Shown here piece by piece: positions 1-24,697 of a DNA stretch of 24,697 nt. The stretch lies in the IMG/VR virus record IMGVR_UViG_3300047409_000038, positions 1 through 24,697 of that record. The stretch is one strand, 5' to 3'. This stretch comes from a virus. Position numbers and translations under genes: made by a program. Position 1 is the first letter of the stretch; every line of letters begins with the position of its first letter. The notes under the pieces are model-generated. The model had not been told where the DNA came from. It ran no database searches and saw only the letters and a program-made list of their open reading frames with translations.

Positions 1-1057
1 GGTATCGGGTCAAATGCTCCTCGACTGGGGCATGAGCGAAGAAGAGGTGCCCGATCCGGCGAAAAACTACCCGGTCGAGGTGTGGCTGATCGGCCCCTAC
101 GTCATCAAAGCGCTGCTGAATTACCACCCGCTGGGGCAAAAACCATACTTTAAGGCGAGTTATGAGGACGTTCCGGGCCTATTTTGGGGAAATTCGGTTT
201 GCGACCTCGTAAGAGACTGTCAGGACATGTGTAATTCGGTCGGAAGAGCCATCGCGAACAACGCTGGCATCGCTTCCGGCCCTCAAGTAGGGGTCAATTC
301 CGACCGGATGCCGCCCGGTGAGGACATTGAGCAGATGTATCCATGGAAAATATGGCAATTCACGTCCGATCCGATGGGTTCGACCGCCGATGCCATCACT
401 TTCTTCCAGCCGAACCTCAATGTGGCCGAATTGATGGCCGTTTTCGAGAAATTCGCGATTTTGGCTGACGAATACTCGTCGATTCCCCGCTACATGACCG
501 GCGACTCGCCCACGGGGGGCGCAGGACGCACCGCTTCCGGTATGTCGATGCTCATGACGAACGCGAACAAGTCGATGAAGCAGGTGGTGAGCAACATCGA
601 CAACAGCGTCATCACGCCGCTGTTAAACCGCCTGTATTTTTACAACATGAAGTACGGCGAGGACGATTCGCTCAAGGGCGACGTGCAGATCGTGGCCAAG
701 GGGGCCATTGGCGTGGTCGCCAAGGAGTCGGCGCAGGTGCGGCGCAACGAGTTCCTCAACACCGTCGGCGCGAACCCGGTATTCACGCAGGTGGTCGGCG
801 TCGACGGCATCGCAGCGATCCTGCGCGAGGCTGCAAAGAACCTCGACATGGACCCCGACCAGATCGTACCGCCACAGTTCAAAGTCAAGCTCGCGCAGCA
901 ACTTTTGCAGGCGCAGCAGGGTGGCGCGCCACCCATGGCGGGACCGGGCGGCGTACCGCCGCAGGGCGGATCACCGCCAGCACCTGTGCAGAACGGGCAG
1001 ATGTTGCAGGACGGCGCGCCGATTTCCGACAACTTCGCTCCACAAAAGGCAGCATGA
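1..1057 (+). CDS. Portal protein, C-terminal part (5' end outside window)
   Basis: The portal forms the dodecameric ring at the capsid vertex through which DNA is packaged and ejected. The reading frame is already open at base 2 (codons V-S-G-Q before the first ATG at 14), so the gene starts upstream and the ATG at 14 is internal. About 351 residues are visible. The stretch YMTGDSPTGGAGRTASGMS followed by a long helix (MLMTNANKSMKQVV) and VITPLLNRLYFYN matches the conserved C-terminal half of podovirus portals of the P22/N4-like superfamily, as I remember it. The last 50 or so residues are a Gln/Pro/Gly-rich tail, typical of disordered portal ends inside the capsid. Coat and scaffold genes downstream support the call. 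The terminase gene would be expected just upstream. Confidence 0.88.
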   Translation, partial: VSGQMLLDWGMSEEEVPDPAKNYPVEVWLIGPYVIKALLNYHPLGQKPYFKASYEDVPGLFWGNSVCDLVRDCQDMCNSVGRAIANNAGIASGPQVGVNSDRMPPGEDIEQMYPWKIWQFTSDPMGSTADAITFFQPNLNVAELMAVFEKFAILADEYSSIPRYMTGDSPTGGAGRTASGMSMLMTNANKSMKQVVSNIDNSVITPLLNRLYFYNMKYGEDDSLKGDVQIVAKGAIGVVAKESAQVRRNEFLNTVGANPVFTQVVGVDGIAAILREAAKNLDMDPDQIVPPQFKVKLAQQLLQAQQGGAPPMAGPGGVPPQGGSPPAPVQNGQMLQDGAPISDNFAPQKAA

Positions 1058-3815: not shown

Positions 3816-4790
3816 ATGGCAACCATCACCGCAGCACCGGTCTATCCGGTAGCATCACCGTTCACCACCACGCCGTCGTACTCGGGTACCTTCATTCCGT
3901 CGGTCTGGTCGAGCAAGCTCAACGTCAAGTTCTACGCAGCTACGACGTTTGGCGACGTATCGAACACCAACTGGGAAGGTGAGATCAAGTCGATGGGCGA
4001 CAAGGTCATCATCAACAACATCCCGTCGATCACGATCAGCCCGTACACCGTCGGCACCAGCCTGACGTACGAAGCGCCGACGCCGAGCGTCATCGAGCTT
4101 CAGGTTGACAAGGGCTACTACTTCGGCGTGAACGTCAGCGATGTGCTGGAGTACCAAGCCCAGCCGAACCTGATGGACATGTTCACCACCGACGCGGCGA
4201 ATCAGATGAAGATTCAGGTCGACCGCGAGTGCCTGCAAGCCGTCGTCACGGGCGCGGACCCTGCCAACGTCGGGGCGACTGCCGGGAAGATTTCGCTGGC
4301 GTACAACATGGGTGTCGACGCCACGCCGGTTGTGTTGACGGGTGCGAACATCCTCGCGCAGATCACCGCGATGGCGTCGATCCTCGACGAGCAGAACGTG
4401 CCCGAGTCGGATCGCTTCCTGATCTTCACGCCGTTCGAGCGCAACCTGCTCATGTCGTCCAACCTCGCGCAAGCCCAGTGGATGGGGGACGCGTCGTCTA
4501 TCGTCCGCAACGGCAAGATCGGGCGCATCGACCGCTTCGATGTGTACGTGTCGAACCTGTTGCCCGCTGCTGCGACGAACAAGGACTACTTCGGCGGCGC
4601 GAACACCAGCGCCAAGCGGCATGTGATGTACGCGGGCCACAAGTCAGCGTGGACCTTCGCGTCGCAGATCAACAAGGTCGAGAGCATCCCGAATCCCTCC
4701 GATTTCGGGCAGCTTATCCGTGGCCTCGTGGTCTACGGGCGCAAGGTGGTCAAGCCCGAAGGAATGGTCGTCTGCCAAGTTGCGGGCTAG
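3816..4790 (+). CDS. Major capsid (coat) protein
   Basis: This 324-residue protein builds the icosahedral shell and very probably has the HK97 fold. It lacks a signal peptide or membrane segment, begins MATITAAPVYPVASPFTTTP, and contains the coat-like series WEGEIKSMGDKVIINNIPS, TYEAPTPSVIELQVDKGYYF (residues about 87-106) and, near the end, KSAWTFASQINKVESIPNPS, which matches coat proteins of P22-like and related podoviruses as I recall them. AGGAGA (3804-3809) lies six bases before the ATG, one of the strongest ribosome sites here, as expected for the most abundant virion protein. Scaffold lies upstream and neck genes downstream. Third-position G/C bias is very high. Confidence 0.92.
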   Translation: MATITAAPVYPVASPFTTTPSYSGTFIPSVWSSKLNVKFYAATTFGDVSNTNWEGEIKSMGDKVIINNIPSITISPYTVGTSLTYEAPTPSVIELQVDKGYYFGVNVSDVLEYQAQPNLMDMFTTDAANQMKIQVDRECLQAVVTGADPANVGATAGKISLAYNMGVDATPVVLTGANILAQITAMASILDEQNVPESDRFLIFTPFERNLLMSSNLAQAQWMGDASSIVRNGKIGRIDRFDVYVSNLLPAAATNKDYFGGANTSAKRHVMYAGHKSAWTFASQINKVESIPNPSDFGQLIRGLVVYGRKVVKPEGMVVCQVAG

Positions 4791-9737: not shown

Positions 9738-11708
9738 ATGACTGCCGTATCCATCAAGGATTTTTCGGGAATGCTTCCCCGCGTCCCGCCCCACCTGTTG
9801 CCGGATAACGGCGCAGCGTTCGCGTCGAACTGCGATTTCAGCCGTACCGTGCTTACTCCGCTGAGAGGCGGGCTGGAAGTTCTCGCCACGGGCGGCACGG
9901 TGCGCAGCATGTACACAGTCGACGGAATCTACTGGTACACATGGTCTAGTGAACTGGTTGCGTACAAGTCGCCCGTCATTGGCGAAATTTACAACCGCAT
10001 GTACTACATCGAGAACGGCGTGTTCAAGGTGTCACCCTCGCCGGAACCGTCGTCGTCGCTGCCTTCGGGTTCATTGAGTGGCCCACCGAATCCGGGGCTG
10101 ACGTGGAACGTAGGTGTTCCCAACCCTAACAATGCGCCTGTGCTCACGCTCATAGATCGCACCACACTTGCGGACTATCCGGCAGCGAGTATTGCGTTCA
10201 GTACGTGGTACTCGGATGGTGCAGCGAACTTCGGAGTGACAACAGTACAGGCGACGGCTGTGTCTGGGTGGAAGCGTTACTCCCTCACTCCACCTCCGAA
10301 ACCGGCTGACGCTCCCGAAGGAGCGGTGCTCGTTGTGCAGGCTACTGCGACTGAGAACAACAAGCAGTTGTTCCAGATGAACACGGCTACCAATTCGGTA
10401 TCTCCGGCGACAACGTCGGCGCTGCCCGGTGGTATTGCCATGACGCTCGAAGCAGGAGACGGTGGTCTTTACTACGTCAACTTCGCGTGGGGTGTCGTCG
10501 AGACGCGCGCATACATCTTCACTGAAGTGAACACATGGGATGAGGAGTCCGGTCCTTCTCCTGTGTCGCTCATATCCCCCACGTATTTGCAGGACGTGCA
10601 GGTGGTGATGCTGCACCCTCCGTTCGTTGGGTACAGGCCGTTCAAGCAGGCCAACATCTACCGTACCTATGGCGGCTCGCAGTACATCAAGGCTGGAAAC
10701 ACAACTACCTTGGTGCTGTATTTCCTCGACTCTGCTCGTACCGTGCAGTCGGCAACCGGCACGGCATTGCCGTCGTTGTCGTGGGTGCCACCAGTGACCG
10801 GAATGTATGGCCTCGTGCTCGCGCCCAACGGCTGGTTCGCCGCGTTCAAGGACAACATGCTGTACATGAGCGAGCCGTACAGGCCGCACTCATGGCAGTA
10901 CTCGATGACGTTCGCCAAGTCGATCACGGGCATCTGCGTGGGGTCGCAGGTGATCGTGGTGACGACACGCGAGGCGACTTACATCGTGACCGGCCCGCAT
11001 CCGGCGTCGGTGACTTCCATGACGGTGCCGATTCCGGTGGGTGGCATCTCGCATCGCAGCATGTGCGCCGTCGAAGGTGGCATCGCGTTTCTGTCGAACG
11101 ACGGCATCGTCGTGGTCGAAGGAAGCCAAGCGTCACTGGATGTGAACCAGCGCTACTTCACGCGTGAGACATGGCGCAACATGTTTCCTAGGGAGGTGCT
11201 GGAGCTAATGACGCTGGCTTACCACGACGGCGTCGTTGTTGCTGTGCCTTACGATATGCCGTCTAACAACATAGTGACTGGCTTCCTGCTGGAGTTGGAT
11301 GAAGCCAAGGGGGCGATGACACGCTACGACCGCGTCCATACTGCGTTGATGCGCTTACCGGTGCTCGACACGCTGTACTACGCCGAGAATAGCCGCGTTT
11401 ACCGTTTTCGTGAAGATGTTCAGGTGAGTGCCTATTGGTCCAGCAGACAGTTCATCTCGCCCAGATACGTCAAGCTCGGCATTGGCTTCGCCCGCATGTC
11501 GGGGTCAGGTTCGATCACGGTTATGCTGATTGCAGACGATGCACTTATCCATACGCAAATGCTCAACCCTGCCGACCGGACGAAGTATTTTCGCCTGCCG
11601 CCGCATCCCGGCGCGCTGAAGTGGCAGATCAACATCTCGGTAGATGGGTCAGCCACGTTGCTCGACATCGCGTTCGCGCAGTCACCGGATGAGTTGAAGG
11701 ACATCTGA
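9738..11708 (+). CDS. Probable tail nozzle/hub protein
   Basis: This encodes a 656-residue protein. The opening MTAVSIKDFSGMLPRVPPHL plus PDNGAAFASNCDF and a following LTPLRGG matches a family of about 600-700 residues in podoviruses that carries out the tail-tube-end job (T7 gp12-like nozzle, probably beta-propeller). Repeated beta motifs such as MYGLVLAPNGWFAAFKDNML, ITGICVGSQVIVVTTREATY and GGIAFLSNDGIVVVEGSQAS fit propeller blades. A region around residues 130-215 (DRTTLADYPAASIAFSTWYS and on) may be an inserted domain. The start lies directly after the previous stop (TAGATG) with AAGAAGG upstream; the end overlaps the next gene (TGATG). It probably closes the tail and contacts the fibres encoded next. 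Confidence 0.7.
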   Translation: MTAVSIKDFSGMLPRVPPHLLPDNGAAFASNCDFSRTVLTPLRGGLEVLATGGTVRSMYTVDGIYWYTWSSELVAYKSPVIGEIYNRMYYIENGVFKVSPSPEPSSSLPSGSLSGPPNPGLTWNVGVPNPNNAPVLTLIDRTTLADYPAASIAFSTWYSDGAANFGVTTVQATAVSGWKRYSLTPPPKPADAPEGAVLVVQATATENNKQLFQMNTATNSVSPATTSALPGGIAMTLEAGDGGLYYVNFAWGVVETRAYIFTEVNTWDEESGPSPVSLISPTYLQDVQVVMLHPPFVGYRPFKQANIYRTYGGSQYIKAGNTTTLVLYFLDSARTVQSATGTALPSLSWVPPVTGMYGLVLAPNGWFAAFKDNMLYMSEPYRPHSWQYSMTFAKSITGICVGSQVIVVTTREATYIVTGPHPASVTSMTVPIPVGGISHRSMCAVEGGIAFLSNDGIVVVEGSQASLDVNQRYFTRETWRNMFPREVLELMTLAYHDGVVVAVPYDMPSNNIVTGFLLELDEAKGAMTRYDRVHTALMRLPVLDTLYYAENSRVYRFREDVQVSAYWSSRQFISPRYVKLGIGFARMSGSGSITVMLIADDALIHTQMLNPADRTKYFRLPPHPGALKWQINISVDGSATLLDIAFAQSPDELKDI

Positions 11709-13921
11709 TGCCTGATGACTATCTGAATCGCAAGGTCAACACCCTCGCACCTACGGATGGCATACAAGACCCGCAGACGCGGGCCTTCTGCGACTCGCTC
11801 GCCAACGTCTGGCAATTGCGCAATGGCAACACGGGCTTTGACGACACGCAGCGTTTCATCACGAAGCAGGAGTGGGACTTAATTGCGAAGAATCCCAATA
11901 TCCGTGCGCTCGCGGGTATCGGGCAACCCGGTTCATCGACTCTCGAACCGGGGCCGGGCGGCGGTGGGGGCGGTGGCGGTACTCCCCCGCCCGCAGTACC
12001 TCCGTGGATTCAGAATCTGGTGGACTTCCTCGCGTCGGGTATCACGCTGATCGACTTCACGGAAGTTCGTCGGACCAGCAACATACTGTATGCGAATTAC
12101 TTTGCGCTGACGAGCGAGATGCGCAATGAACTCAACAACATCAACACAATTATTTCAGGTCTTCAGAACGACATTACCCAGATCAACACGATCACCCACG
12201 ATTCTACGTCGGCCAGCGCGCAGACGTTGTGGGCGTTGAAGGAGACGGTGAACGACCCGGTCACCGGCCTGCCCGCCGCCACTGCTGCAATCATTGAGAT
12301 CAACAACGTAACGGTTACTTCGACATCGGCTAATGCCAAGGCGACTGCTGCCATGGTTGCCACGGTGAACGACCCGGTCACAGGCAACATAGCGAATACG
12401 GCTGCGATCATTCAGATCAACACTGTATCGGCTACGTCGACTTCGGCCAATGCGAAGCAGCTTGCTGGGCTTACTGCGCAGACCAACGATCCGGTTACTG
12501 GTCTGCCGAGAGCGACCGCCGACATTGCGGCGATCAACAACGTATCGACTACTTCGAGTTCGGCCAATGCTCGCAAAGTCGCCGGTATGTCTGCACAGGT
12601 TGATGGCAATCTGGCGCTGATTAACGAGATCAACAACGTCAGTGCTAACTCGTCTTCTGCCAGCGCGCAGAAGCTGACCGGAGTGATTGCGTACTCCGGC
12701 CTCAAGGCGAGGACGTTTTCGCAGCCACCACCCGCGCCGTCCAGCAACTCAAGCTACACGCTTGTCATTGGTGACCTTTGGATAAACACCGCCAACGGCA
12801 ACCAATTGCTGCGCTGGAACGGCACTGCATGGGTAGATGCCGCCGACGCACGCATCTCCAGTGTTTCGGCAGGCATCACTACTGAGTCAAATGCGCGTAC
12901 GTCAAGCGATTCGGCACTGGCCAAGCAACTCAATTTGTTTTGGGCAGAAGTCGGTAGCAGCCAAGCGCTTGTTGTTGACGGGACTACGGTTACTGCCAAC
13001 CCCAATGCAGGTTCGGCAACTAAGTTCCTGCAAGTGCAGACGGCGCTCAAAGACCCCAACACGGGTCAAGTCGTCGCAGCAGCGAGCCGACAGGACTTCA
13101 CCACTTACGTCAGCCTGAATGAAGGCCGCGCAACTTCTTCGTATGTGTTGAAGGTGCAAGCGGAGTCAGGTGGCGTCAAAGCCATCACCGGCATGACTCT
13201 CTTCTCCGAGGTAGTGCCGGGACAAGGACCGAAGAGCGCTGTTGTTTTCTACGCTGACACCTTCGCTGTATATCACTCAACCACTGGGCTGGTGCCACCG
13301 TTTGCGGTTTCGGGCGGCTTGGTGCGGATGAACATCGCCTACATCTCGGATCGCATCCAGTCTGACTCTTGGATTCCGAAAACCTACGGCTGGATCATCC
13401 GGCAGGACGGCAGCGCGGAGTTCAACGGCGCTGTTCTTTTCGGCAAGATATATTCGGGGTCGACGCTGCTCGACCGTGACTCAGGACAAGTCCTGCCCAG
13501 TGTTGCAACGGGTGCATGGGGTGCAGATAGCATCACCGGTACTGGCATTCAGACTTCAGCGAATGTCACGTTCTATGGCCCTAGCCTGCACGCTTCTGCA
13601 CCTACTACGCATCGCATCCGGCAGGGAGACAGCATCGGTATCGACATCCCGACTACAGTGATATTCGTGGGCATTGCCGATCACTACATTTCAATTTGGC
13701 GCAGATTGAACGGTCAGGCGTGGCAGCGGTTGAACACGACCATTGAGCCAACACCCGACTACGGTGCCCTGACGTGCGCGTGGGTAGGCACAACTCCCTG
13801 TGCGATCAATTCCAAGTGGGAATTTGGCGTGTCCCCCACCAACTCTCTTGAGCTACCGCTCAATCCCGCCAAGGTCGACATTCGCGCTTTTAGCCTGCTC
13901 GTCACCATGGCGAACATCTAG
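11708..13921 (+). CDS. Tail fibre / tip attachment protein, lambda J C-terminal (DUF1983) type
   Basis: This encodes a 737-residue host-binding protein. Residues 1-80 form an N-terminal attachment domain (MPDDYLNRKVNTLAPTDGIQ), followed by a Gly8/Pro linker (about 84-98). A helical stalk holds three 39-residue repeats that start with DPVTG at residues 183, 222 and 261. A GDLWINTANGNQLLRWNGTA module (from residue 355) is common in tail proteins. The next part has lambda-J/DUF1983 features: VVFYADTFAVYHSTTGLVPP, SGGLVRMNIAYISDRIQSDS and GWIIRQDGSAEFNGAVLF (around 561-578). The last 150 or so residues are the likely receptor-binding tip. The start overlaps the previous stop and AAGGA lies six bases upstream. 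Presence of this siphovirus-type fibre beside a nozzle protein suggests modular exchange. Confidence 0.82.
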   Translation: MPDDYLNRKVNTLAPTDGIQDPQTRAFCDSLANVWQLRNGNTGFDDTQRFITKQEWDLIAKNPNIRALAGIGQPGSSTLEPGPGGGGGGGGTPPPAVPPWIQNLVDFLASGITLIDFTEVRRTSNILYANYFALTSEMRNELNNINTIISGLQNDITQINTITHDSTSASAQTLWALKETVNDPVTGLPAATAAIIEINNVTVTSTSANAKATAAMVATVNDPVTGNIANTAAIIQINTVSATSTSANAKQLAGLTAQTNDPVTGLPRATADIAAINNVSTTSSSANARKVAGMSAQVDGNLALINEINNVSANSSSASAQKLTGVIAYSGLKARTFSQPPPAPSSNSSYTLVIGDLWINTANGNQLLRWNGTAWVDAADARISSVSAGITTESNARTSSDSALAKQLNLFWAEVGSSQALVVDGTTVTANPNAGSATKFLQVQTALKDPNTGQVVAAASRQDFTTYVSLNEGRATSSYVLKVQAESGGVKAITGMTLFSEVVPGQGPKSAVVFYADTFAVYHSTTGLVPPFAVSGGLVRMNIAYISDRIQSDSWIPKTYGWIIRQDGSAEFNGAVLFGKIYSGSTLLDRDSGQVLPSVATGAWGADSITGTGIQTSANVTFYGPSLHASAPTTHRIRQGDSIGIDIPTTVIFVGIADHYISIWRRLNGQAWQRLNTTIEPTPDYGALTCAWVGTTPCAINSKWEFGVSPTNSLELPLNPAKVDIRAFSLLVTMANI
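12254..12604 (+). repeat. Three 117-bp (39-residue) stalk repeats in the fibre gene
   Basis: Units begin at 12254, 12371 and 12488. Each has the plan DPVTG, a helical segment AxIxxINxVxxTSxSANAK, then a second helix. Degenerate copies flank the array (HDSTSASAQTLW before, ANSSSASAQKLTG after). The regular spacing fits a trimeric coiled-coil or mixed stalk whose length could change by unit gain or loss. Confidence 0.78.
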
Positions 13922-14244: not shown

Positions 14245-14693
14245 GCCAAACTGCTACCATGCCGACGCTACGCCTTGTACCTCAAGCCGAAGTCGCCGCG
14301 CGTTGGGTTGAGTTTCGCACCATGCTGGACAGAGCCATCCAGCATGCGCGGGGAGAACTCGAAGTCGACGACATTCTTTCCGGCGTGCTGGTCGGTGCTA
14401 TCGGTGTGCTGGCGCAGGAAGAAGGGGACACGTTGGAGTTGCTGTTCGCCTTTGAAGTCATCAACTACCCACGGCAGTCGGTGTTCAACATCATTGCTAT
14501 GGCGGGCAAGAACTTCGCCGGTCTTCCGTCCTGCTGGGACTTGATCGACAAACTCGCCACCAATATGGAAGCGTCCGTCGTGCGGTGCTATGTGCGCCCT
14601 GCGGTCGCCCGCCGTATCAAGCGGTTATTCCCCGACACGCAGCAAGCGTACGTCGTCATGGAGCGGGAGGTGCATCATGCGGGTCTTCACTAG
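14241..14693 (+). CDS. GNAT-fold-like phage protein
   Basis: This encodes a 150-residue protein starting at ATG 14241 (MSQTATMPTLRLVPQAEVAA), overlapping the previous stop by four bases; the ATG at 14259 is a possible alternative. The plan (basic first strand TLRLVPQ, helix, TLELLFAFEVINYPRQSVFNI, then CWDLIDKLATNMEASVVRCY and a final strand with VVMEREVHH) matches small podovirus proteins with an acetyltransferase-like fold that sit before the internal virion protein genes. A clear acetyl-CoA binding R/Q-x-x-G-x-G/A loop is not visible, so enzymatic activity is doubtful and a structural role is as likely. Its 3' end overlaps the next gene by 17 bases. Confidence 0.6.
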   Translation: MSQTATMPTLRLVPQAEVAARWVEFRTMLDRAIQHARGELEVDDILSGVLVGAIGVLAQEEGDTLELLFAFEVINYPRQSVFNIIAMAGKNFAGLPSCWDLIDKLATNMEASVVRCYVRPAVARRIKRLFPDTQQAYVVMEREVHHAGLH

Positions 14694-16278
14694 AGTCGTA
14701 TACGAATGGCGCGGCGACGAACTCGTTCAGACCGAAGCTGAGAGCTACGAGTACGACGGCCCGGTCGATCTCGCCAAGGGCGGCGGCAGCGCGCCGCAAA
14801 ACTACGCCAACCTCGACCGGCTGTACGGCATCCAAGCCGATCAAGCCGAATTCCTCGGGAACACCTTCAAGGGCACGGTCGCTCCTGCGTACAAGAGTTG
14901 GCTGGGCGAGGCGCAGGACTACGGCTCGCAGGCCAATCAGGAACAGGCAGCGCAGCGGGCGGGCAAGTCTGCCAGCGGTGCCATTAGCCAGCAGCAGCAG
15001 GCGCTGGAGGGGAACATGGCCTCGTACGGCCTCAACCCCGGCGATGCGCGCTGGCAGCAGGGCGTGCGCGAGATGGGCATTCAGGGTGCTGCGCAGCAGG
15101 CCGCTGCCGAGACGACGGCGCGCGACAGCATCCGCGACAAGGGTTTCGCCCGGACGCAGGACGCTATCGGCATGGGGATGGGCACGCCGACGCAGGCTTC
15201 GCAGGCTGCGAACTCCGCTGCCAACGCCGCTACTTCCAGCCTGACCGCGCAGAACCAAGCGCAGCAACAGCAGGCCAACTCGGTCGGCAACATCGTGCGC
15301 GCCGGGACGAATATCTGGGGCGCGTACAACGACTACGACAAGGGCAAAGCGGATGGTGGGATGGTAGAGAAGCGCGGCATCCTGCGGCTCAAAGGCGGCG
15401 GATATGTGCAGCGCCTCGCGAAGGGTGGTTTCGCAGGTGGGGGTGGTGGCGGTGGCTTCATGTCCACGCCACAGGTCGCCGCGCCGCCGCCCATGCGTCC
15501 CCCGCCCCCGCCAAGCGGCGCGGAGCAGGCGGGTGCCGCCGCCGCAACCCCAATGGGTATGCAGGCGATGAAGTACGGCGTCGGCAAGGCGGCGGAAGCG
15601 GGTGGGCAGGCGGCTGGGTCGCCGGGGGCACAGGCGTTCGGTCGCGGGCTGCAACTTTCACCCGCTGATGCGCGGGCGGGGCAGGCGGGGTACGAAGCCA
15701 GCGCCAAGGTCGCGGCAGAGAATGCGGTGGACAAGGCGATGGGTACGCCGGGGTATGCCGGTGCGAAAACGGCTGCTGACTCCGAGAGCGCGCTCGCGTC
15801 CGCGCAGGTGGGTGCCGGTCAGGACGCGGCAGCGCTGGAAGCCGCGCAGGCAGGGGCAACGACTGCTGCTGACGCCGAAACCGCCCTCGCTTCCGCGCAG
15901 GCTGCTGAAGCTGCCGCCGCTGCCGACGCTGCTGCGACGGCTGGAACCGTGGGTGGACTGGAAGCGGCGGGTGCTGGCATGGGCGCGGCGGCGGCGCTGG
16001 GCACGGCAGTCCCGGTGGTCGGCGCGGGCCTCGCGCTGTACGGCATCGGCAACGCGGCGGGGTGGTGGGCGGATGGCGGCGAGGTCAATCCCGGCTCGCA
16101 GGGGCAGACCGGCGAGGTCGATGGCCCCGGTGGACCCAAGGATGACGAGGTGATGGCGGCGCTCTCTGACGGCGAGTTCGTCATGCCGGTGGGGGCGGTC
16201 AAGTTCTTCGGCATCGACCGGCTGGAGAAGATGCGCCAGAAGGGTCTGGAGCACGAGAAGCAATTGGGGATCGCATGA
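14677..16278 (+). CDS. Probable internal virion (ejection) protein with Gly motif tail
   Basis: This encodes a 533-residue protein. GGGAGG (14665-14670) is six bases from the ATG at 14677, which sets the start inside the previous gene. Residues 1-215 are Gln/Ala-rich helices (SGAISQQQQALEGNMASYGL), as in T7 gp14-type ejection proteins. Residues about 225-275 carry GG motifs (ADGGMVEKRG, LKGGGYVQRLAKGGFAGGGG). An Ala-rich helical repeat follows (ALASAQ twice). A hydrophobic segment near 445-465 (GTAVPVVGAGLALYGIG) could enter a membrane. The C-terminal motif GEVDGPGGPKDDEVMAALSD then GEFVMP (residues about 479-504) recurs in phage tape measure and internal proteins. With the next two large genes it fits a three-protein ejection set. 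Confidence 0.72.
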   Translation: MRVFTRVVYEWRGDELVQTEAESYEYDGPVDLAKGGGSAPQNYANLDRLYGIQADQAEFLGNTFKGTVAPAYKSWLGEAQDYGSQANQEQAAQRAGKSASGAISQQQQALEGNMASYGLNPGDARWQQGVREMGIQGAAQQAAAETTARDSIRDKGFARTQDAIGMGMGTPTQASQAANSAANAATSSLTAQNQAQQQQANSVGNIVRAGTNIWGAYNDYDKGKADGGMVEKRGILRLKGGGYVQRLAKGGFAGGGGGGGFMSTPQVAAPPPMRPPPPPSGAEQAGAAAATPMGMQAMKYGVGKAAEAGGQAAGSPGAQAFGRGLQLSPADARAGQAGYEASAKVAAENAVDKAMGTPGYAGAKTAADSESALASAQVGAGQDAAALEAAQAGATTAADAETALASAQAAEAAAAADAAATAGTVGGLEAAGAGMGAAAALGTAVPVVGAGLALYGIGNAAGWWADGGEVNPGSQGQTGEVDGPGGPKDDEVMAALSDGEFVMPVGAVKFFGIDRLEKMRQKGLEHEKQLGIA

Positions 16279-16502
16279 ACCTCGCGGGCTTCGCGGAAAG
16301 CATCGGTGGCGAGTTCGTCGCCGGGTGCCTGCTCGCCACGGTCAACGGCAAACGCCAGTACCTGTACCGCGACGGGCAGTTCACGCTGGTAGGGCGTCCG
16401 CTGTATCTCGCGTGGGAAAACGAACCTCGCGAGGCAATTGCCACACCGGAATCTGAAACTCCGCGCAAGCTCCACAGGGGTGGGAGGAATAGACATGGCT
16501 GA
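16275..16502 (+). CDS. Small hypothetical protein between ejection genes
   Basis: This encodes a 75-residue protein starting in an ATGA overlap with the previous stop and preceded by GGGGA. The start MNLAGFAESIGGEFVAGCLL and the middle VNGKRQYLYRDGQFTLVGRP look like a small folded alpha/beta domain. The tail is Arg/His-rich (RKLHRGGRNRHG) and its DNA also carries the GGGAGG ribosome site of the next gene, so the tail sequence may be partly dictated by that signal. No family is recognised. Coupling on both sides suggests it is made together with the ejection proteins. Confidence 0.6.
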   Translation: MNLAGFAESIGGEFVAGCLLATVNGKRQYLYRDGQFTLVGRPLYLAWENEPREAIATPESETPRKLHRGGRNRHG

Positions 16503-17982
16503 CTGGCTCAACATCGCGGGCGGTGCAAGCAAAGGCTACGTCGAGGGTGACCAAGACAACCAGCGTCGGCAGGAATTTCAGGCGTTGCAAAACCAACGCA
16601 AGCGCGTCGAGAAGCAGCAGAAGCTGGACGATGAGCTTACGGCGCAACTCAAGAAGGTGCGCCCTGAAGGTACCTACCAAGACGTGGAGCGCACGGGAGC
16701 GCCTGCGGACGCCACGGAAGCTGCGCCGGATTTCATGGGGCCGGGGTCTGGTGGACCCACGAAGAAAGTTGTTCGTACCGCAGCGGATGTCGCGCGTGAG
16801 CGAGGGGCTATTTACGGTGGCAGCGGGCGGCTGCAAGACATGCAAGCTGCTGCTACACAGCAGACGCTGGCGTACCAAGCCGAGCAACAGGCTGAGCAAC
16901 AGAAACAACGGCAGGTATGGGACACAGTCAGGCGGGCCGATGCTTTGAACAGTGCGGGTAACTCCGCAGCCGCATTACGTTTGATCCAGCAGGGCTACCA
17001 CGATCATGTGCCCGATGGACACGAGATTGTGGTCGAGGAGCGTAACGGCGTTCAACACTCGGGCGTCGCGGGACCGGATGGCCGGTACATCACGCCGCCG
17101 CAACCGGTTACGCAACAATCGGTGCAGGCGATGATCGACCAAGGGTACAAGATGCTTACGCCGGAGACGTACGCCAAGTCGCAGGAGTTGGGTATCCAGA
17201 AGACGACCGCAGGCGCGCATGTCACAACAGCGCAAGCTGCTGCGGATAACGCGGCCACAGCCAAAGCCAAGATGATCTACGAAACGACCGGCGACTACGC
17301 AGCGGCTGAACTTGCCTACAAGAAATCTATGGCGGCGCAAGGTTTCGCGCATGCCAACTACTTCAACGCAGCGTCTAACAAAGAGAAGCAAACGCCAGCG
17401 CAGAAGGCGCAGGATTTGATCGACACCTATATGCCAATCGTCAAGGCGTCGAACCCCGGCATAAGCGATGCACAGGCGCGTTTGCAGGCAGCGCGCATGG
17501 TTGCTCCGCACGACGCGACGATGAAGAAGATGAACGACGTGCAGAGTACGGCGTTCAAAAAGCTCACTGTAATGGAGGATTCAGGTGCGTTTGAGGGTAA
17601 GGGTGGTCGTGAAAAACGTGATGCGTTCATCAGTCAGTATGGACTCGAAGACTTTGTGTCTGTCGATCCGCTGACGCAGAAAATAGTGGCGGCGATGGGT
17701 GCTGGTCCGGGGGGTACTGGTCCGGGGGCAGCACCGGTAGCGCCTACTGCGGCTGGGGTGACTGCTGGACCGCCTACCTCTGATACAGCAGCGGAACAGC
17801 GGCTCAGCGAGGCCGAGGCTGCACTTCGGAAATTCGGCGTTCGTCAGAAACGAGACAACCCCGCAGGATATTCTTCAGCACTCAAACATCTTAGTGATGC
17901 GAAAGCAGAACTCGACGCGCTGAACGCCAAGTACGCCACTACGCAACCGACAGGGGCCGCGTTTACTTCTGCGCGCCCGTAA
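16495..17982 (+). CDS. Probable internal virion (ejection) protein, second of three
   Basis: This encodes a 495-residue protein. The ATG at 16495 follows GGGAGG (16482-16487) by seven bases; an earlier in-frame start at 16438 is rejected. The N-terminus MADWLNIAGGASKGYVEGDQ is followed by a long charged coiled coil (residues about 20-55), Gln-rich helices, a small domain with PDGHEIVVEERNGVQHSGVA (about 166-200), and further Ala/Lys-rich helices. A Gly/Pro/Thr-rich linker (about 402-430) separates a last helix pair. The composition and place between two other large Ala/Gln-rich proteins fit the T7 gp15 position in an ejection set. It overlaps the previous gene by 8 bases. No catalytic motif is seen. 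Confidence 0.66.
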   Translation: MADWLNIAGGASKGYVEGDQDNQRRQEFQALQNQRKRVEKQQKLDDELTAQLKKVRPEGTYQDVERTGAPADATEAAPDFMGPGSGGPTKKVVRTAADVARERGAIYGGSGRLQDMQAAATQQTLAYQAEQQAEQQKQRQVWDTVRRADALNSAGNSAAALRLIQQGYHDHVPDGHEIVVEERNGVQHSGVAGPDGRYITPPQPVTQQSVQAMIDQGYKMLTPETYAKSQELGIQKTTAGAHVTTAQAAADNAATAKAKMIYETTGDYAAAELAYKKSMAAQGFAHANYFNAASNKEKQTPAQKAQDLIDTYMPIVKASNPGISDAQARLQAARMVAPHDATMKKMNDVQSTAFKKLTVMEDSGAFEGKGGREKRDAFISQYGLEDFVSVDPLTQKIVAAMGAGPGGTGPGAAPVAPTAAGVTAGPPTSDTAAEQRLSEAEAALRKFGVRQKRDNPAGYSSALKHLSDAKAELDALNAKYATTQPTGAAFTSARP

Positions 17983-17987
17983 GTACC

Positions 17988-20900
17988 ATGGCTTTCGACA
18001 GTCTCCGTACCAAAATCCCGTGGATGAAGGATTTGTCCGACGACGAGATTTTGCTAAAGACGTCGGCAGCTACGGGCATGGACCCGAAGGAGATTGCCGA
18101 CTATTACGGGTACGACGCGCCCTCGTCGATGATGGGCAAGGAGTTGTCGGCTGGGTGGGAGAATTACAAGGCGGGCATGGGCCACATCGGTTCAGCGATG
18201 GGCATCCCCGGCGCGGCGGAATGGACTGCGAAAAAGAAAGCCAAGGCGGAAGCGCTGCAATCTCTGTCCACGGCCCCGCACTCGTTCGAGGAGATGAAGT
18301 TCGGCGACCCCGAGAAGGGAGCGCTGCCGTATGTCGGGCAACTCTTTGCAAGCTCAGCCCCGTACATGGCCGAAGCGGCGGGCTACACGCTCGCTGACGT
18401 GGCGACGGGTGGCGCGCTGACGCCTGCGATCCTCGCTCGCTACGCCCCCGCTGCTGCACGGCTTGGCGTCACCGTGCCCGAGTTCCTTGGCGGGCAGGGG
18501 GTCAGGGCCGGTGCCACGTTCGCCGAGCGGCGCGCTGCGCTCGCGGCGGCGGAAGAATCAGCCCCCGCCTTGGCCCGCACGGCCATGATCCCGGCAGTGA
18601 CCTACCCGTCCTCGCTGGGCGACGTGCTGGGCAACCAGCAGGAAGAGGCGGGTAAGTACAACCTGCCACGCGCGATGGCCGCAGCGTTGCCGTACTCGGC
18701 GCTTAACATCCTCGGGCTGGAGGGTGCGGTCACCAAGGGCGCACTCCCTCGGCTGGGCATCAAGAGTCTGGAAAAGAACATGGCGGGCCGCGCCGCGTCG
18801 GGTGTGCTCGCCACAGGTGCGTCGGAAGCGGTCAACGAGACTGGGCAGGAAGTGATGAACCAGTGGGGGCGGATGGGTGTGAATCCCAACGCCACGTTCA
18901 CTGATCCCGGTGCGCTTGAGCGGTACAAGGAGTCGGCCATCGGCGGCGCGATCCTCGGTGGCCTTCCCGGCTCACTGCATGCCTTTGGCGGTCATCGTGG
19001 ACCGCTCGACACCAAGCAACCTGCTGACCTGACCAAGCGCCTGCCCGACCAAGATTACGCGGAGCAGTTCGGGTCGCACTTCGCACCCGAGGGGTTGGGT
19101 CTGCGCACGCCGGAGGAACACGCGGCCTACACGCAGAAGCAGGCCGAAGACGACCTCATGGCACGGCTCAATCCGGGCGCTGCGCCTGCCGCGCCTGTGT
19201 ATGGGACCGATGCCGTCGGCGAGATGGAACGTGCGGCTGGGGTCGCTCCCGGTACCTTTGCGCCGGTCCCTGCTGCTGCCAAGGTCAAGCCCAAGGCCGC
19301 AGCCGACGCCGCCACGACTGCTGCCGCCCCTGCCACCGCTGCTGCGACGGTCGACCCGGTGCTCCAGCAGGTCGAAGCCACGCGGGCAGAAATTCTCGAC
19401 GCGCACGCGCGGTTGTTCCCCGAGAAGCACGCAGCGCGAGCGGACAGACCCTACCTGACCCATCAGGAGCTTGTCCGGTGGACAGGCAACCCGAAGACGG
19501 TGGATGAGGCCGTCGCCACGCTCAAGTCGAAAATTGTTGGTGCGCTTACGCAGCCGGGCAAGGGCAAGATGGCCCGGAGAGCCAACGCGGAGGACATGCT
19601 CCGGCTGCACGACGAGCTTCTCGGCCTGCCGGAAGATCAGCGCCTGTCGCTGGATGACTGGGAAGCCAACCTCAAGGCCGAGAGCGCGCTCGCCGCTGCC
19701 AAGGTCGGGGATGCAGGCAAGTTGCCCGGTGCAGTCACGACGGTTGAGCCAAAGACGCTTGAACAGGAAGCTGCGTTGGCGAAACTCCGTGAGCGGGTGG
19801 CGGCAGGCGAAGCACCGTTTATCGACTACGAAACTCAGGGGGATGGTTCCATCACTGTCTACGCCAAGGGGATCGGGTCGGTTGACAGCAAGTGGAAGGT
19901 CAAGCTCGACCTGACACCAGAAGAACAAAGGGCGGCGAAGAAAGCTATCGCGCTGGATAACCTCGCCGAAACAGCGGAAGAGAAAGCTGAAGCGAAGCAA
20001 GCAATGCAGGATGCGGTTGGGGCTGCGGCTGCGCGGCATGCGGGTGTCGCTCCTACTGCAACCGCCGCACCGACGTCCACCGCACCTGTGCCGGGGGTGT
20101 GGCACGTCGTAGAACGCATGGGGAAGTTCTACATAGGCAACGCCAGCAAAGATGGCAGAAGCAGGGAGGAGCAGGGAGACTTCCCCACACGTCAGGCAGC
20201 GCAGGCATGGGCAGATAAACTCAACGCTGACATAACGCCGAAGGGTGCCACCACTACCGAAGTGGAAACCCCGCCTGCGGCACCGGCAACTCCCACCGAG
20301 GAAGAGCGCGTCGCGAAGCGGGAGCAGCTTACTACCGCCATCAGGGGTGGCTTGACCGACAAGGAGTGGGAAGCGCTCCGGCTCACACGCGGCAAGGAGG
20401 AGAACCTCGCGGGGGGCGTGGAGAAGACCGCCGAGGAGTTGGCGAAGGAGCAGGCGGCAGACGAGACGGCAGCGTACCGGACGGAAGACGACGAGGGCGA
20501 TGGCGGGGGAGCGCCCGAGGAACAGCGCGCCGATACGATACGCGGCACCGCTGCCAAGCTGGGTCTTGCGCCATCGACGTTCCAAGGTGTGCTGAAACGG
20601 GCGCAGGAAAAGGTCGCGGCCCTCGCCGCCCAACATGGAATTACCGAGGACGACGCCAACGAACTGCTGGGCTTGCAGTCGAGCTACGACGTTGCGGCGG
20701 TCGACTTCGCATCTACGGGCTACTCGGGAAAGGAGCGGGTTGCCACAGTTGACGACCGCCCGGAGTTGACGGGAGAGGCGTACGACACGACGCATGGCGA
20801 AGCGGAAGCCGCAGCCACCGAAGGCGAGGGTGAAGGTGAAGAAGTCGCCGTCGAAGGCAAGAAGAAAGAGGTGCAGCCCGAGAACAAGTGGGTCGACGCG

Positions 20901-23900
20901 CAGGGCCAGTCCATCTCGCACGCTGACGTGCAGGATGCGGCGGAAGATTACGGTAACCACGAGATGGGGTACGCGGCAGGCGATCCTGCGTGGGGGCAGT
21001 TGTCACCCAAGCTCCAGCTACAGTGGGTCCGTGGTTACCTCGCGGCACACACCATGTACCCGAAGACGAAGCAGGCACCGGAGCGGCGCAAGTTCACCGA
21101 CGTCGTGCGTACGGCCATGGCGGAAGAACAGGAGCAACCCAATGAAGCAGACACCGATACAGCAGGCGCTGACGAAGGGGCAGGCGCAGACCGTCAAGCA
21201 GAAGAAGGCGCAGATGACGCCGGAAGAACTGAAGGCGGCGAACAAGAAGTGGGCGGCGTTTCAGGAACAGATGAGAAAGCAGATACGGGACGAGTACCAC
21301 CTGCCGCAACCGAAGGTGAAAAGCCTGCCGACGCTGAAAAAGCTGGGGGAGGAACCGAAACCGCCCCAGTCGTAAAGCGCAAGCGGAAGGTCGCCGGGGG
21401 CAAGGCGGAAGCCGTATCCACGCCCGAGCCGGAACCGGAGATACCCGAGACGACGGGCGAGCGTGCGCTGCGCAAGTGGAACGAAGCCAAGGCCATCGCG
21501 CCGGAGCTTGGCAACTGGGGCGACCTGTCGCATCAGGCACGGAAAATATTCACCGCTGCGGAGGAGAAGGACCAGAAGCTCGCCGATGCGATGAAGCTGA
21601 AACAGGAGGAAGGGAAGCTCCGCGATCAGCACGGCAACATCGTGACGCCGCGTGATGACACGAAAAAAGAAGAGAAGCCTGCCAAGAAGCCGACGAACAA
21701 CTTCGAGCGGGCGAAGCAGATGGAAGCACTCGCCGACGAGAACGATGCGAAGGGCAGGCCCGTAGTCGCACGGCTGCTGCGCGAACGCGCTGCGGAAATC
21801 CGTACGGAACCCGAACCCGAGGAAGGCGCGCCCAAGGAGCCGCCAGCCGAAGGTGGCAACATGCTGAGTGCCATCCGGGCTGAACCGGGCGTGGACATGG
21901 TACGGATGGCGAAGCTGTTGGGGCCGCAACTCTATGGCAATCTCAACGACATCGGCCCCGTCACCATCAAGGAGTTGTTCCAGAACGCATTCGACGCCAT
22001 CAAGGATGCGATCAAGCTGGGCAACCAAAGAAGTGGCGAGATTTCAGTCAGCCTTGACGAGAACGCACGCACGATCACGTTGACCGACGACGGCGCTGGC
22101 ATGACGCCGGAGATCATCAACAAGGCGTTCCTGACGCTGGCCGGGACGAAGAAGGAAACCGACCGCTCATCGGGTGGCCTCGGCATTGCCAAGATGCTGT
22201 TCCTGTTTGGCAACGAATCGCTGTCGCTGAAGACGGTGCGCAACGGTGTCGAAAGCACGCTGAATACGTCCGGTACCCAGTTGATGGAGTCGTTTTCCGA
22301 TCCGACGAAAGCACCGGACATCCATACAAAGAAAACCACCGACCCATCGGGCACGACGATAACAGTCAAGGTGCCCAAGACTTTCTATAACGAGGCGACC
22401 GACACCACCGACGAGATCAAGTTTCCTCCTCGGTATCGGGCCAGAGAAATACTGGAATCAAGTCCGCTGTTTGAGCCAATCAGTGTCAAGCTTAACGGGG
22501 ATTTGATAGACATTGGCAACAACTTCCCCGCAGATGAGTGGACGGTGCTGGCCGTGCCGAAGTTCGCATGGGGCAAGGTCCGTGTGTTGGTGAAGCCGAT
22601 GGAATATCCGGGCTTTGAGAACGTGACCATGCTGTCGAACGGCATCGTTCAGTTCTATGCCAAGATTGGCAAAGAACCCGGTGATCCGTTTTCTGCTCCA
22701 GCGCCCTACAAGTTCTTTTTCAACATCGAGCCGGATGTAAAAGCCGACGCCCCGAACTACCCGATTGCGCTCAACCGGAAAGGGTTCTCGCGTTCCGCCG
22801 AGAGTGACTTCAAGACGTTGCTGAACTACCTCGCCGCCATGTACGCCAACACGGTGAGCGAGCAAAGTTCGCAGTCGTTTGGGGCGCTATCGCTATTTTC
22901 GGAGGATGGCAAAACTGAAAAAGAAGTCGACCTCAACGTACCCAAGGCGGCAGCGGGCACTACGCTGAACATCAACAAGGGCGACAAGGTCGAGTTGCGC
23001 GATGGACGGATGTACGTCAACAACCGGGCGATGCCGGAGTTGACGAAGGAAGACCTGAAAGCAATGAAGCACGACCCCGGACAATTCCGGGTCAGTCAGG
23101 ACTTGATCGACCCCAACAAGTTGATCGTCCACGACAACGTGCTGCTCAATGACAAGCCCTATCTGGACGAGGCGCGGGCTGCACTCGGGGAAGACGCAGT
23201 CAACGGTTATCTGCTTGGCTTCGCCCGTGCGTTCAAGCGCATACGCGATGCTGCGGTGAAACTAGGCGGTGCGAAGTATGCCGACCTCGGCAGCGTGCCG
23301 GTCGGGGTAAGCATCGACACCAAGTATTACGGCGTCAACACCGTGGTTCCGTTCAAAGCCATGATGTTGAATCCAACTGTGTTCAAGAGCGACAACATCG
23401 ACGACATGCCGATAGCGTTCGCTGGCACCATGGTCCATGAAATAGCGCACCACCCCGAGCGCAATCACAGCGAGACAGGGTTCATCCCCGAGGTGCAGCG
23501 GATGCTTGTTACCTTGTCGCTGTCGGACGATGTGCAACGGGCAGTGATGGACCTGCAACTCATCGCCAAGGATTATGGTCACGTATTCGATTATTTCGTC
23601 AAGGAGTCGAACAGTGGAAATCTCAAGAATCGTGGCATCCGCTTGGAAGGTGGGGAAGAACGCGTCGGGGGCGAAGGCGATGCTGGAGGGACTGCTGGGA
23701 CCAGCGGAAACCGAGGGAATGCGGAAGACAGCACCGGACTACGTCAATCTACTGGAGCGAGCAATCAAAACCGCGCCCAAGGCCAAGGACGCACAGGAGC
23801 ACCTGCGGCTAATGCGGGAAGGACGCTAGGAGCGGGACAGAGTTTCGCGTCGCGCAAACACCTGAGCAAAGTCCACGAGTTTGCACAAAGGCATGGCCTT

Positions 23901-24697
23901 GGGTTCATGATTACCGAGGACATCGCCGACCTCGCCGCTGCGAATGGCTTGGGGGAAGTGCGCGACTACGTCGAAGCCACCAAGCAGCGGGAAGGCGCGC
24001 GCCGGGAGTTCGAGGCTCCGGTAGCCAAGATCGCCGAGTTGTACGACCAACTGCCGGAACGCGAGCGCGGCACGGGCGCTGGCAGCGTCAACAAGTTCTT
24101 GCACGACGCGACTACCACTGGCAGTACCACTGGCATCAACGCGCTGTCGGCGACGGGGCAGCAACTGGTCAAGGCTGTGTTCCAGCATGGCAAGGACGTA
24201 CTCGCGCTCAAGAAGAAACTCATCGAGGACGAGGTCGGCGGGGAGTACAGCAAGCGCATCGCCCAAGAAACGGACGCTGCCAAGAAAGCCGAACTGGTCA
24301 AGGAGCGTGACCTAGTCCTGAGAAAGTTCAGCAAGCTGTGGACGAAGGGTCCGTCGGATACCTACGCGCCGCTCAAGCGGTTCGGCGACTATGTAGTGTC
24401 GGCCAAGTCCAAGGAGTATGTGCAGCATGAGGAGGGCAAGACCGACGCGGACAGGAAGTGGATCAGCGCCAACGAGTCAGACCCGGCTCACGTCCAGATG
24501 CACTTCGCCGACACCATGGCCGAGGCCGAGGCACTGGAAGCGCAGATCAAGCAGCAGTACGACTTCAAGGGTGGCAAGACCTACGCCGCCGCGCGCGAGG
24601 CCGACATCCACAACAGCCGCGACCTGTTCCGTGCCTTCCCGGTATTGCAGACGCGGCTCGAAGCCGAGTACCCGATGCTCGACGGCAAGCCATCGCC
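17988..24697 (+). CDS. Giant polyvalent/ejection protein with GHKL ATPase and zinc metallopeptidase (3' end outside window)
   Basis: The frame from ATG 17988 has no stop to the window end: at least 2,236 codons. It follows two ejection-type genes, so it is probably packaged and injected with the DNA. Residues 1-330 are Ala/Gly-rich with hydrophobic helices and could form a channel. About 340-700 is Ala/Pro linker and charged helices. A small beta-beta-alpha unit begins at W705. A GHKL ATPase lies at about 1310-1480: N box E1329, N1333, D1336; G1 box DDGAGM (1367-1372); G2 box SSGGLGIAK (1394-1402). After a middle region comes a zincin: H1817-E-I-A-H1821-H-P-E-R-N-H1827. YAPLKRFGDYVV from 2126 resembles regions of other giant phage proteins. 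No lytic transglycosylase motif is seen. The ATG has no clear SD sequence, suggesting low expression. Two small genes are nested in its +1 frame. Confidence 0.85.
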   Translation, partial: MAFDSLRTKIPWMKDLSDDEILLKTSAATGMDPKEIADYYGYDAPSSMMGKELSAGWENYKAGMGHIGSAMGIPGAAEWTAKKKAKAEALQSLSTAPHSFEEMKFGDPEKGALPYVGQLFASSAPYMAEAAGYTLADVATGGALTPAILARYAPAAARLGVTVPEFLGGQGVRAGATFAERRAALAAAEESAPALARTAMIPAVTYPSSLGDVLGNQQEEAGKYNLPRAMAAALPYSALNILGLEGAVTKGALPRLGIKSLEKNMAGRAASGVLATGASEAVNETGQEVMNQWGRMGVNPNATFTDPGALERYKESAIGGAILGGLPGSLHAFGGHRGPLDTKQPADLTKRLPDQDYAEQFGSHFAPEGLGLRTPEEHAAYTQKQAEDDLMARLNPGAAPAAPVYGTDAVGEMERAAGVAPGTFAPVPAAAKVKPKAAADAATTAAAPATAAATVDPVLQQVEATRAEILDAHARLFPEKHAARADRPYLTHQELVRWTGNPKTVDEAVATLKSKIVGALTQPGKGKMARRANAEDMLRLHDELLGLPEDQRLSLDDWEANLKAESALAAAKVGDAGKLPGAVTTVEPKTLEQEAALAKLRERVAAGEAPFIDYETQGDGSITVYAKGIGSVDSKWKVKLDLTPEEQRAAKKAIALDNLAETAEEKAEAKQAMQDAVGAAAARHAGVAPTATAAPTSTAPVPGVWHVVERMGKFYIGNASKDGRSREEQGDFPTRQAAQAWADKLNADITPKGATTTEVETPPAAPATPTEEERVAKREQLTTAIRGGLTDKEWEALRLTRGKEENLAGGVEKTAEELAKEQAADETAAYRTEDDEGDGGGAPEEQRADTIRGTAAKLGLAPSTFQGVLKRAQEKVAALAAQHGITEDDANELLGLQSSYDVAAVDFASTGYSGKERVATVDDRPELTGEAYDTTHGEAEAAATEGEGEGEEVAVEGKKKEVQPENKWVDAQGQSISHADVQDAAEDYGNHEMGYAAGDPAWGQLSPKLQLQWVRGYLAAHTMYPKTKQAPERRKFTDVVRTAMAEEQEQPNEADTDTAGADEGAGADRQAEEGADDAGRTEGGEQEVGGVSGTDEKADTGRVPPAATEGEKPADAEKAGGGTETAPVVKRKRKVAGGKAEAVSTPEPEPEIPETTGERALRKWNEAKAIAPELGNWGDLSHQARKIFTAAEEKDQKLADAMKLKQEEGKLRDQHGNIVTPRDDTKKEEKPAKKPTNNFERAKQMEALADENDAKGRPVVARLLRERAAEIRTEPEPEEGAPKEPPAEGGNMLSAIRAEPGVDMVRMAKLLGPQLYGNLNDIGPVTIKELFQNAFDAIKDAIKLGNQRSGEISVSLDENARTITLTDDGAGMTPEIINKAFLTLAGTKKETDRSSGGLGIAKMLFLFGNESLSLKTVRNGVESTLNTSGTQLMESFSDPTKAPDIHTKKTTDPSGTTITVKVPKTFYNEATDTTDEIKFPPRYRAREILESSPLFEPISVKLNGDLIDIGNNFPADEWTVLAVPKFAWGKVRVLVKPMEYPGFENVTMLSNGIVQFYAKIGKEPGDPFSAPAPYKFFFNIEPDVKADAPNYPIALNRKGFSRSAESDFKTLLNYLAAMYANTVSEQSSQSFGALSLFSEDGKTEKEVDLNVPKAAAGTTLNINKGDKVELRDGRMYVNNRAMPELTKEDLKAMKHDPGQFRVSQDLIDPNKLIVHDNVLLNDKPYLDEARAALGEDAVNGYLLGFARAFKRIRDAAVKLGGAKYADLGSVPVGVSIDTKYYGVNTVVPFKAMMLNPTVFKSDNIDDMPIAFAGTMVHEIAHHPERNHSETGFIPEVQRMLVTLSLSDDVQRAVMDLQLIAKDYGHVFDYFVKESNSGNLKNRGIRLEGGEERVGGEGDAGGTAGTSGNRGNAEDSTGLRQSTGASNQNRAQGQGRTGAPAANAGRTLGAGQSFASRKHLSKVHEFAQRHGLGFMITEDIADLAAANGLGEVRDYVEATKQREGARREFEAPVAKIAELYDQLPERERGTGAGSVNKFLHDATTTGSTTGINALSATGQQLVKAVFQHGKDVLALKKKLIEDEVGGEYSKRIAQETDAAKKAELVKERDLVLRKFSKLWTKGPSDTYAPLKRFGDYVVSAKSKEYVQHEEGKTDADRKWISANESDPAHVQMHFADTMAEAEALEAQIKQQYDFKGGKTYAAAREADIHNSRDLFRAFPVLQTRLEAEYPMLDGKPS
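21130..21134 (+). promoter_or_regulatory. Ribosome site of nested gene 21142-21375
   Basis: AGGAG lies seven bases before ATG 21142, inside the giant gene. This ideal spacing is the main evidence for the start of the nested gene; the giant gene's own start has no comparable signal. Confidence 0.6.
21142..21375 (+). CDS. Small Lys/Gln-rich gene nested in the +1 frame of the giant gene
   Basis: This encodes a 77-residue protein (MKQTPIQQALTKGQAQTVKQ at the start, helical KKWAAFQEQMRKQIRDEYHL in the middle, Pro/Lys-rich end). AGGAG is seven bases before the ATG. By hand count about 64 of 77 codons end in G or C in this frame, against about 27 of 78 in the giant frame over the same bases, so the genome's codon bias follows the nested frame. 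In the giant frame the stretch (residues about 1052-1129) is low-complexity Gly/Ala/Glu/Asp linker. The frame upstream of 21142 is Arg/Ser-rich and looks non-coding. The function is unknown; a small basic helical partner of the giant protein or of nucleic acid is possible. Confidence 0.62.
   Translation: MKQTPIQQALTKGQAQTVKQKKAQMTPEELKAANKKWAAFQEQMRKQIRDEYHLPQPKVKSLPTLKKLGEEPKPPQS
23601..23606 (+). promoter_or_regulatory. Ribosome site of nested gene 23614-23829
   Basis: AAGGAG lies seven bases before GTG 23614. The hexamer and its spacing decide this start over the ATG at 23575, which has only AAGGA two bases away. Confidence 0.6.
23614..23829 (+). CDS. Second small gene nested in the +1 frame of the giant gene (GTG start)
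   Basis: This encodes a 71-residue protein, helical and mildly basic: V/MEISRIVASAWKVGKNASG, then AKAMLEGLLGPAETEGMRKT and a final DAQEHLRLMREGR. AAGGAG precedes the GTG by seven bases. By hand count about 50 of 71 codons end in G or C in this frame, against about 33 of 72 in the giant frame. The overlapped giant-frame residues (about 1876-1948) are Gly/Asn/Gln/Ser-rich linker just after the metallopeptidase motif. It has the same relative frame (+1) as the nested gene 2.2 kb upstream, but I see no clear similarity between the two proteins. The function is unknown. A chance frame remains possible, though less likely given the start signal and codon bias. Confidence 0.6.
   Translation: MEISRIVASAWKVGKNASGAKAMLEGLLGPAETEGMRKTAPDYVNLLERAIKTAPKAKDAQEHLRLMREGR

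Follow-up and report, generated by a model that had tools for sequence, protein, structure and literature searches.

GHKL proteins that carry a transducer domain dimerise and close upon ATP binding, behaviour well documented for MORC, Hsp90, GyrB and Topo VI-B, and many GHKL clamps act on DNA. A review of jumbo phages treats rIIA, topoisomerase GHKL proteins and SprT-like proteases as separate proteins. The protease Wss1 is DNA-activated and clears chromatin-bound proteins together with the ATPase Cdc48 (PMC4559962). The polyvalent proteins of phages are multi-thousand-residue mosaics that close the virion gene block; zincins are their commonest domain, and in the 12 known polyvalent MPTase clades a Glu from the following helix serves as third zinc ligand (Iyer 2017, PMC5512222). 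In the podovirus JC1, a giant protein ending in LPD38 was detected in virions by 51 unique peptides; this DarB-like protein of the Bcep22/JC1 podoviruses carries a HepA-type helicase, LPD3 and LPD38 (PMC9144972).

Here we describe a giant protein encoded in an IMG/VR virus record (IMGVR_UViG_3300047409_000038), the whole analysed stretch of which, 24,697 nucleotides, is referred to as the window. By its domains and its place we assign it to the polyvalent proteins of phages (Iyer 2017): like those described, it is a multi-thousand-residue mosaic that closes a virion gene block and contains a zincin. It carries a module of about 600 residues, recognised from AlphaFold models and homologues, in which a GHKL ATPase with its transducer domain is followed by the zincin. 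This module is absent from the main text of that paper, as is the GHKL domain itself, and the JC1 giant does not have it.

The giant gene and its neighbourhood

The giant gene (Table 1) starts with ATG five nucleotides past the end of the upstream gene and continues without internal stop codons until it runs off the contig end, as an earlier note on this DNA had read it. The sequence motifs named in that note were all found at the residues given, the zinc motif lying 418 residues past GIAK. A sequencing error hiding a frameshift or stop, which the note had raised against its own reading, is unlikely because the 56 complete homologues, 1,895–5,219 residues long, are each encoded in a single frame. 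The upstream portal, capsid, internal virion and tail-tip genes lie on the same strand, which bears out the placing of a polyvalent-type giant beside virion genes. The further proposal that two ejection-type genes directly precede the giant stands for the 562-aa protein, which matches a virion structural PHROG and resembles a protein encoded two genes ahead of the giant of Rhizobium phage RHph_TM3_14A. The 514-aa gene is ejection-type by position only; it gave no family match and no homologue among the upstream genes of the relatives. In many relatives, the giant is preceded by a gene whose family matches phrog_4287, a DNA ejection protein. Homologues of the first 500 residues of the giant were sought among the N-termini of its relatives and none were detectable, and a scan for promoters and terminators gave nothing informative. 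The tail-tip-like gene (11708–13921) contains five direct repeats at 12179–12660, mostly spaced 117 nt (39 codons) apart.

Table 1. Features of the window and their coordinates.
Feature	Position	Strand	Remarks
Portal/head-tail connector, 5' end cut	2..1057	+	SU10_portal Pfam, phrog_332
Major head protein	3816..4790	+	phrog_267, E 8e-60
Virion protein (phrog_511 internal virion protein)	9738..11708	+	E 5e-85
Virion structural/tape-measure-like 562-aa protein	14590..16278	+	phrog_8003, E 4e-16
Upstream 514-aa gene	16438..17982	+	5 nt before giant; ejection-type by position only
Giant polyvalent-type protein	17988..24695	+	At least 2,236 aa; 3' end past contig
N-terminal region, aa 1-1280	17988..21827	+	Without recognised domain
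GHKL ATPase + transducer domain, aa 1301-1630	21888..22877	+	Pfam HATPase_c; AlphaFold; VIA structural matches
N box E1329-x3-N1333-x2-D1336	21972..21995	+	Unvarying across 34 sequences
G1 box DDGAGM, aa 1367-1372	22086..22103	+	Module D87, G89, G91, M92 invariant (34 modules)
G2 box SSGGLGIAK, aa 1394-1402	22167..22193	+	Module G116, G119, A121, K122 invariant (34 modules)
Arg1597, transducer domain (module R317)	22776..22778	+	Invariant in 34 modules
Wss1/YgjP-like zincin domain, ~aa 1700-1900	23085..23690	+	AlphaFold, structural matches, Pfam of homologues
Zinc motif HEIAHHPERNH (HExxHx5H), aa 1817-1827	23436..23468	+	H118, E119, H122, H128 invariant in 66 sequences

The GHKL ATPase and transducer half

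The window protein has the features that identify a GHKL ATPase, namely the N, G1 and G2 boxes together with a curated Pfam score, HATPase_c matching residues 1327–1464 with E 8e-8 and 33.2 bits, above its cut-off of 26.4. E1329 of the N box is presumably the catalytic Glu and N1333 the Mg-binding Asn, as in ATP-hydrolysing GHKL proteins, and by comparison with Hsp90, MutL and GyrB we take Arg1597 to be a candidate gamma-phosphate contact. A histidine kinase reading was ruled out by the hydrolytic Glu in the N box and the transducer domain behind it; a PADLOC match to REase_II (E 5e-4) spans the GHKL core only.

An AlphaFold model built from the module alignment reached a pLDDT of 84.7. Residues 21–350 of this model matched closed Hsp90 with Z 21.2 over 281 residues at 3.4 Å (VIA), nearly tied with Topo VI-B (Z 20.5) and GyrB (Z 20.0). 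Since the structural matches span ATPase and transducer together, we group this half with the ATP-clamp proteins (Hsp90, Topo VI-B, GyrB, MORC). The earlier note had suggested that the GHKL fold could remodel host proteins in an Hsp90-like way for cleavage by the protease; the predicted structure gives Hsp90 no clear lead, Topo VI-B and GyrB being within about one Z unit of it. Sequence profiles are led by Hsp90 (TRAP1, E 2e-7), and the Hsp90 model matches all 34 modules; the window protein does not reach the NCBIfam cut-offs for the Hsp90 family proper (32 bits vs 455) or DNA topoisomerase VI subunit B (21.5 bits vs 274). The module thus has the three boxes and the transducer fold in common with Hsp90/HtpG, Topo VI-B, GyrB, MORC and MutL, whereas a zincin takes the place of their usual C-terminal parts.

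The Wss1-like zincin half

A Pfam search with the window's own zincin gave no match at E 0.05, WLM included, whereas YgjP-like matched 53 and WLM 48 of 66 homologous zincins (best WLM E 5e-6). Modelled alone, the domain had a pLDDT of 92, and its three best structural matches in VIA-align were all Wss1 (Z 8.8, 8.6 and 8.4), followed by BepA (Z 6.4). The Wss1 entries superposed with an rmsd of 2.5–3.1 over 100–110 residues, a Z of 8–9 being modest. The top PDB profile match was likewise Wss1p (E 0.014, weak taken alone), and Foldseek with the zincin alone returned nothing significant, Wss1 included; the match to Wss1 comes from VIA-align and the profiles. As the predicted structure, the PDB profile and the Pfam matches of the homologues concur, the description of this domain as Wss1-like is well supported, the window's own copy being one without a Pfam WLM match.

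The HExxHx5H motif, its GTMxHELxH context and the predicted fold are common to the module zincin, Wss1/WLM, YgjP and the minigluzincins, and the module differs from Wss1/WLM in the fusion to GHKL. YgjP and minigluzincins carry the same motif, and a Wss1-like fold is no proof of a Wss1-like substrate. The alignment indicates that the third zinc ligand is likely the invariant His of HExxHx5H, which would differ from the Glu of the known polyvalent MPTase clades. We also considered a metzincin reading of the motif; it gave weak profile matches only, the Gly of HExxHxxGxxH is missing, and Wss1 is ahead structurally. In two relatives (L038, 5970–14651; L015, 8588–15709) a second HExxH lies 180–245 residues past the first, possibly marking a second metallopeptidase domain.

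The module as one conserved unit

The claim that one GHKL and one zincin domain are joined in a single protein, put forward for checking by profile and structure searches, was confirmed by Pfam HATPase_c, homologues and structure prediction, and the pairing extends far beyond the window. An initial search with the module gave four relatives at 41–62% identity, a scan seeded with GHKL peptides gave 43 loci, and a scan seeded with one peptide per half gave 141 matches, of which 80 were kept. Once duplicates were collapsed, we counted 76 distinct modules in IMG/VR. A zincin was present in every parsed locus of the GHKL-seeded scan with a contig long enough (one locus, L014, was added later to the zincin set), and its recovery was independent of the search because the two seed peptides both came from the GHKL half. 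Reciprocally, the zincin-seeded scan found GHKL in the same frame in 79 of 80 loci, the exception being a contig start. All motifs were present in 71 of 73 distinct testable modules, one exception being a contig start and the other a variant of the G1 pattern used. The distance from the N box to HExxH was 487–650 residues (median 533). Because the pairing is seen from both seed directions, GHKL and zincin form one unit.

Among 34 full modules, the N-box E/N/D, G1 D/G/G/M, G2 glycines, transducer Arg and zinc-site H/E/H/H are all invariant. Such invariance of both motif sets, with the zinc motif kept in 66 zincins, is more than chance. The median pairwise dN/dS of 0.13 (34 pairs) points to purifying selection, and in whole-length alignments of the giants almost all invariant columns fall inside the module. 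Taken together, the invariant catalytic residues, the low dN/dS and the focus of conservation on the module suggest that both domains have probably been kept as working enzymes. The two halves are joined by residues ~380–400 of the module model, where pLDDT is ~60, and coupling between them is therefore not visible in the model.

A full relative was sought in 50,697 phage records, 72,556 plasmids and 84,980 prokaryote genomes, and none was found. Two matches labelled 'Listeria phage' proved to be 1.5-kb unannotated records covering part of the GHKL core. Two scans of prokaryote genomes for cellular or prophage copies, which reach only relatives sharing short peptides, gave 305 and 216 peptide matches and no relative, and more distant cellular versions may exist. 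The viral protein A0A516L4L2 (UniProt, in BFVD) matches the whole module (TM 0.91, 40% identity); as it carries the same pair of folds, the pairing is already in databases, and we found no description of it. Literature searches of open-licence journal papers for GHKL with polyvalent proteins or metallopeptidases retrieved the jumbo-phage review alone and no described pairing, and nothing relevant for WLM and phage. The earlier note had suggested that the pairing could be an under-described counter-defence or host-takeover module and had named many well-described relatives as what would speak against it; relatives are indeed many, but none was found described. The GHKL-zincin pairing is real, conserved and recurrent in dozens of uncultivated phages, and it is apparently undescribed.

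An apparent carrier with changing cargo

The nearest isolate by capsid is RHph_TM3_14A (43% MCP identity), in which the window's portal and capsid genes and several further virion genes have homologues. At the corresponding place, this phage encodes a giant of 2,307 aa that includes an inorganic pyrophosphatase domain, and the giant thus looks like a shared carrier in which the cargo is swapped. The complete homologues often contain LPD38, LPD39, LPD22, ART (ART-PolyVal) or ddrB-ParB, and in single cases NUDIX or GP88; in the incomplete window protein we found neither LPDs nor other signature domains. Several domains of unrelated activity occur in one large chain, GHKL and zincin in the window and ART, ddrB-ParB, NUDIX and LPDs in the homologues. 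Homologues of the window's virion genes were not detectable within the sequence flanking the giants of its relatives, so either the module has passed from one phage lineage to another or these genes are too diverged to be recognised. The LPD38-ending JC1 giant, the one found in virions, occupies the place corresponding to the window's giant, and by this analogy the latter is probably carried inside phage particles.

Some of the homologous giants are very large (L109, 5702–21334, 5,211 aa; L018, 2–16669, at least 5,556 aa; L008, 5343–18074, 4,244 aa). One has a NUDIX domain as extra effector cargo between zincin and LPD38 (L002, 6215–16384; aa 2039–2149, E 1e-15), and another a GP88 domain immediately ahead of the GHKL module (L003, 1–9918; aa 217–448). 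Behind the giant, two relatives share an opposite-strand gene of 951 aa (L042, 15620–18472; L010, 15352–18204; both on the minus strand). The L042 product matches a hypothetical protein from Pseudomonas phage Rollin (29%) and a 'putative integrase' of RHph_TM3_14A (25%); Rollin itself encodes an LPD39 giant, which its annotation calls an OppA transporter protein. An acetyltransferase gene lies two places ahead of the giant in L017 (3657–4100), and acyl- or acetyltransferase genes also occur shortly ahead of the giants of RHph_TM3_14A and JC1.

Discussion

Our preferred reading, held tentatively and with somewhat less than even confidence, is that the giant is a polyvalent protein with an ATP-switched protease, packaged and ejected with the genome, and most likely cutting DNA-bound proteins. 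After late synthesis and packaging, the protein would leave the virion together with the phage genome and act once ATP is available in the host. ATP binding would close the GHKL clamp, as a dimer like Hsp90, Topo VI-B and MORC. The substrate held by the clamp would then be cut by the Wss1-like zincin, which lies behind the transducer in the same chain. The fusion of clamp and protease in one chain suggests such ATP-gated cutting of a held, plausibly DNA-bound substrate. DNA activates Wss1, which cleaves proteins bound or crosslinked to DNA, and DNA is also what many GHKL clamps act on; the likeliest substrates would for this reason be proteins sitting on the phage DNA as it enters or on the host chromosome, such as nucleases, other defence proteins or the transcription machinery. 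We regard as rather unlikely the bolder version in which an ATP-clamp-gated, genome-injected Wss1-type protease clears DNA of host proteins as infection begins, among them defence nucleases, silencers, RNA polymerase and covalent DNA-protein complexes.

The main rival, itself doubtful, is that the giant polypeptide is the zincin's own substrate and is cut, ahead of packaging or once ejected, to free its domains, with GHKL as an ATP sensor that lets cutting start only in the host cytoplasm, or as a built-in chaperone refolding the ejected chain. Self-processing is a proposed role for metallopeptidases in polyvalent proteins, and P1 DdrB is processed ahead of packaging (PMC5512222); activated Wss1 also cleaves itself (PMC4559962). 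The module mostly lies mid-protein, with variable N- and C-terminal cargo on either side, as this explanation would have it, but in one relative (L004) it occupies aa 45–637 at the extreme N-terminus and leaves little upstream to release. Other polyvalent metallopeptidases, moreover, manage without GHKL.

It is unlikely that the chain simply holds two independent effectors, an rIIA-like counter-defence GHKL and an unrelated protease. Polyvalent proteins are mosaics by definition, and phage rIIA is the nearest named viral fold to the GHKL half, in matches limited to that half (TM ~0.35 of the module); weak RIIA PHROG matches occur in at most 6 of 34 modules. The obligate pairing speaks against independence: contig ends allowed for, the pair is inseparable in the 73 testable modules and the 80 zincin-seeded loci, and the spacing is held at 487–650 residues while other domains differ between giants. 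Very improbable, finally, is a degenerate structural remnant without enzymatic role, given a dN/dS of ~0.13 and catalytic residues of both domains that stay invariant across highly diverged sequences.

In the GHKL-zincin module, an ATPase and a protease, both apparently intact as enzymes and obligately paired, join the arsenal of phage giants; nearly all members of the family seen to date come from uncultivated phages. Wss1-like proteases are best known from eukaryotic DNA-protein crosslink repair, and one is now placed in a protein that is likely injected by a phage. The compact module of ~600 residues, with obvious residues to mutate (the N-box Glu and the HExxH Glu), is well suited to asking whether ATP gates proteolysis in what is apparently a tool for the start of infection.
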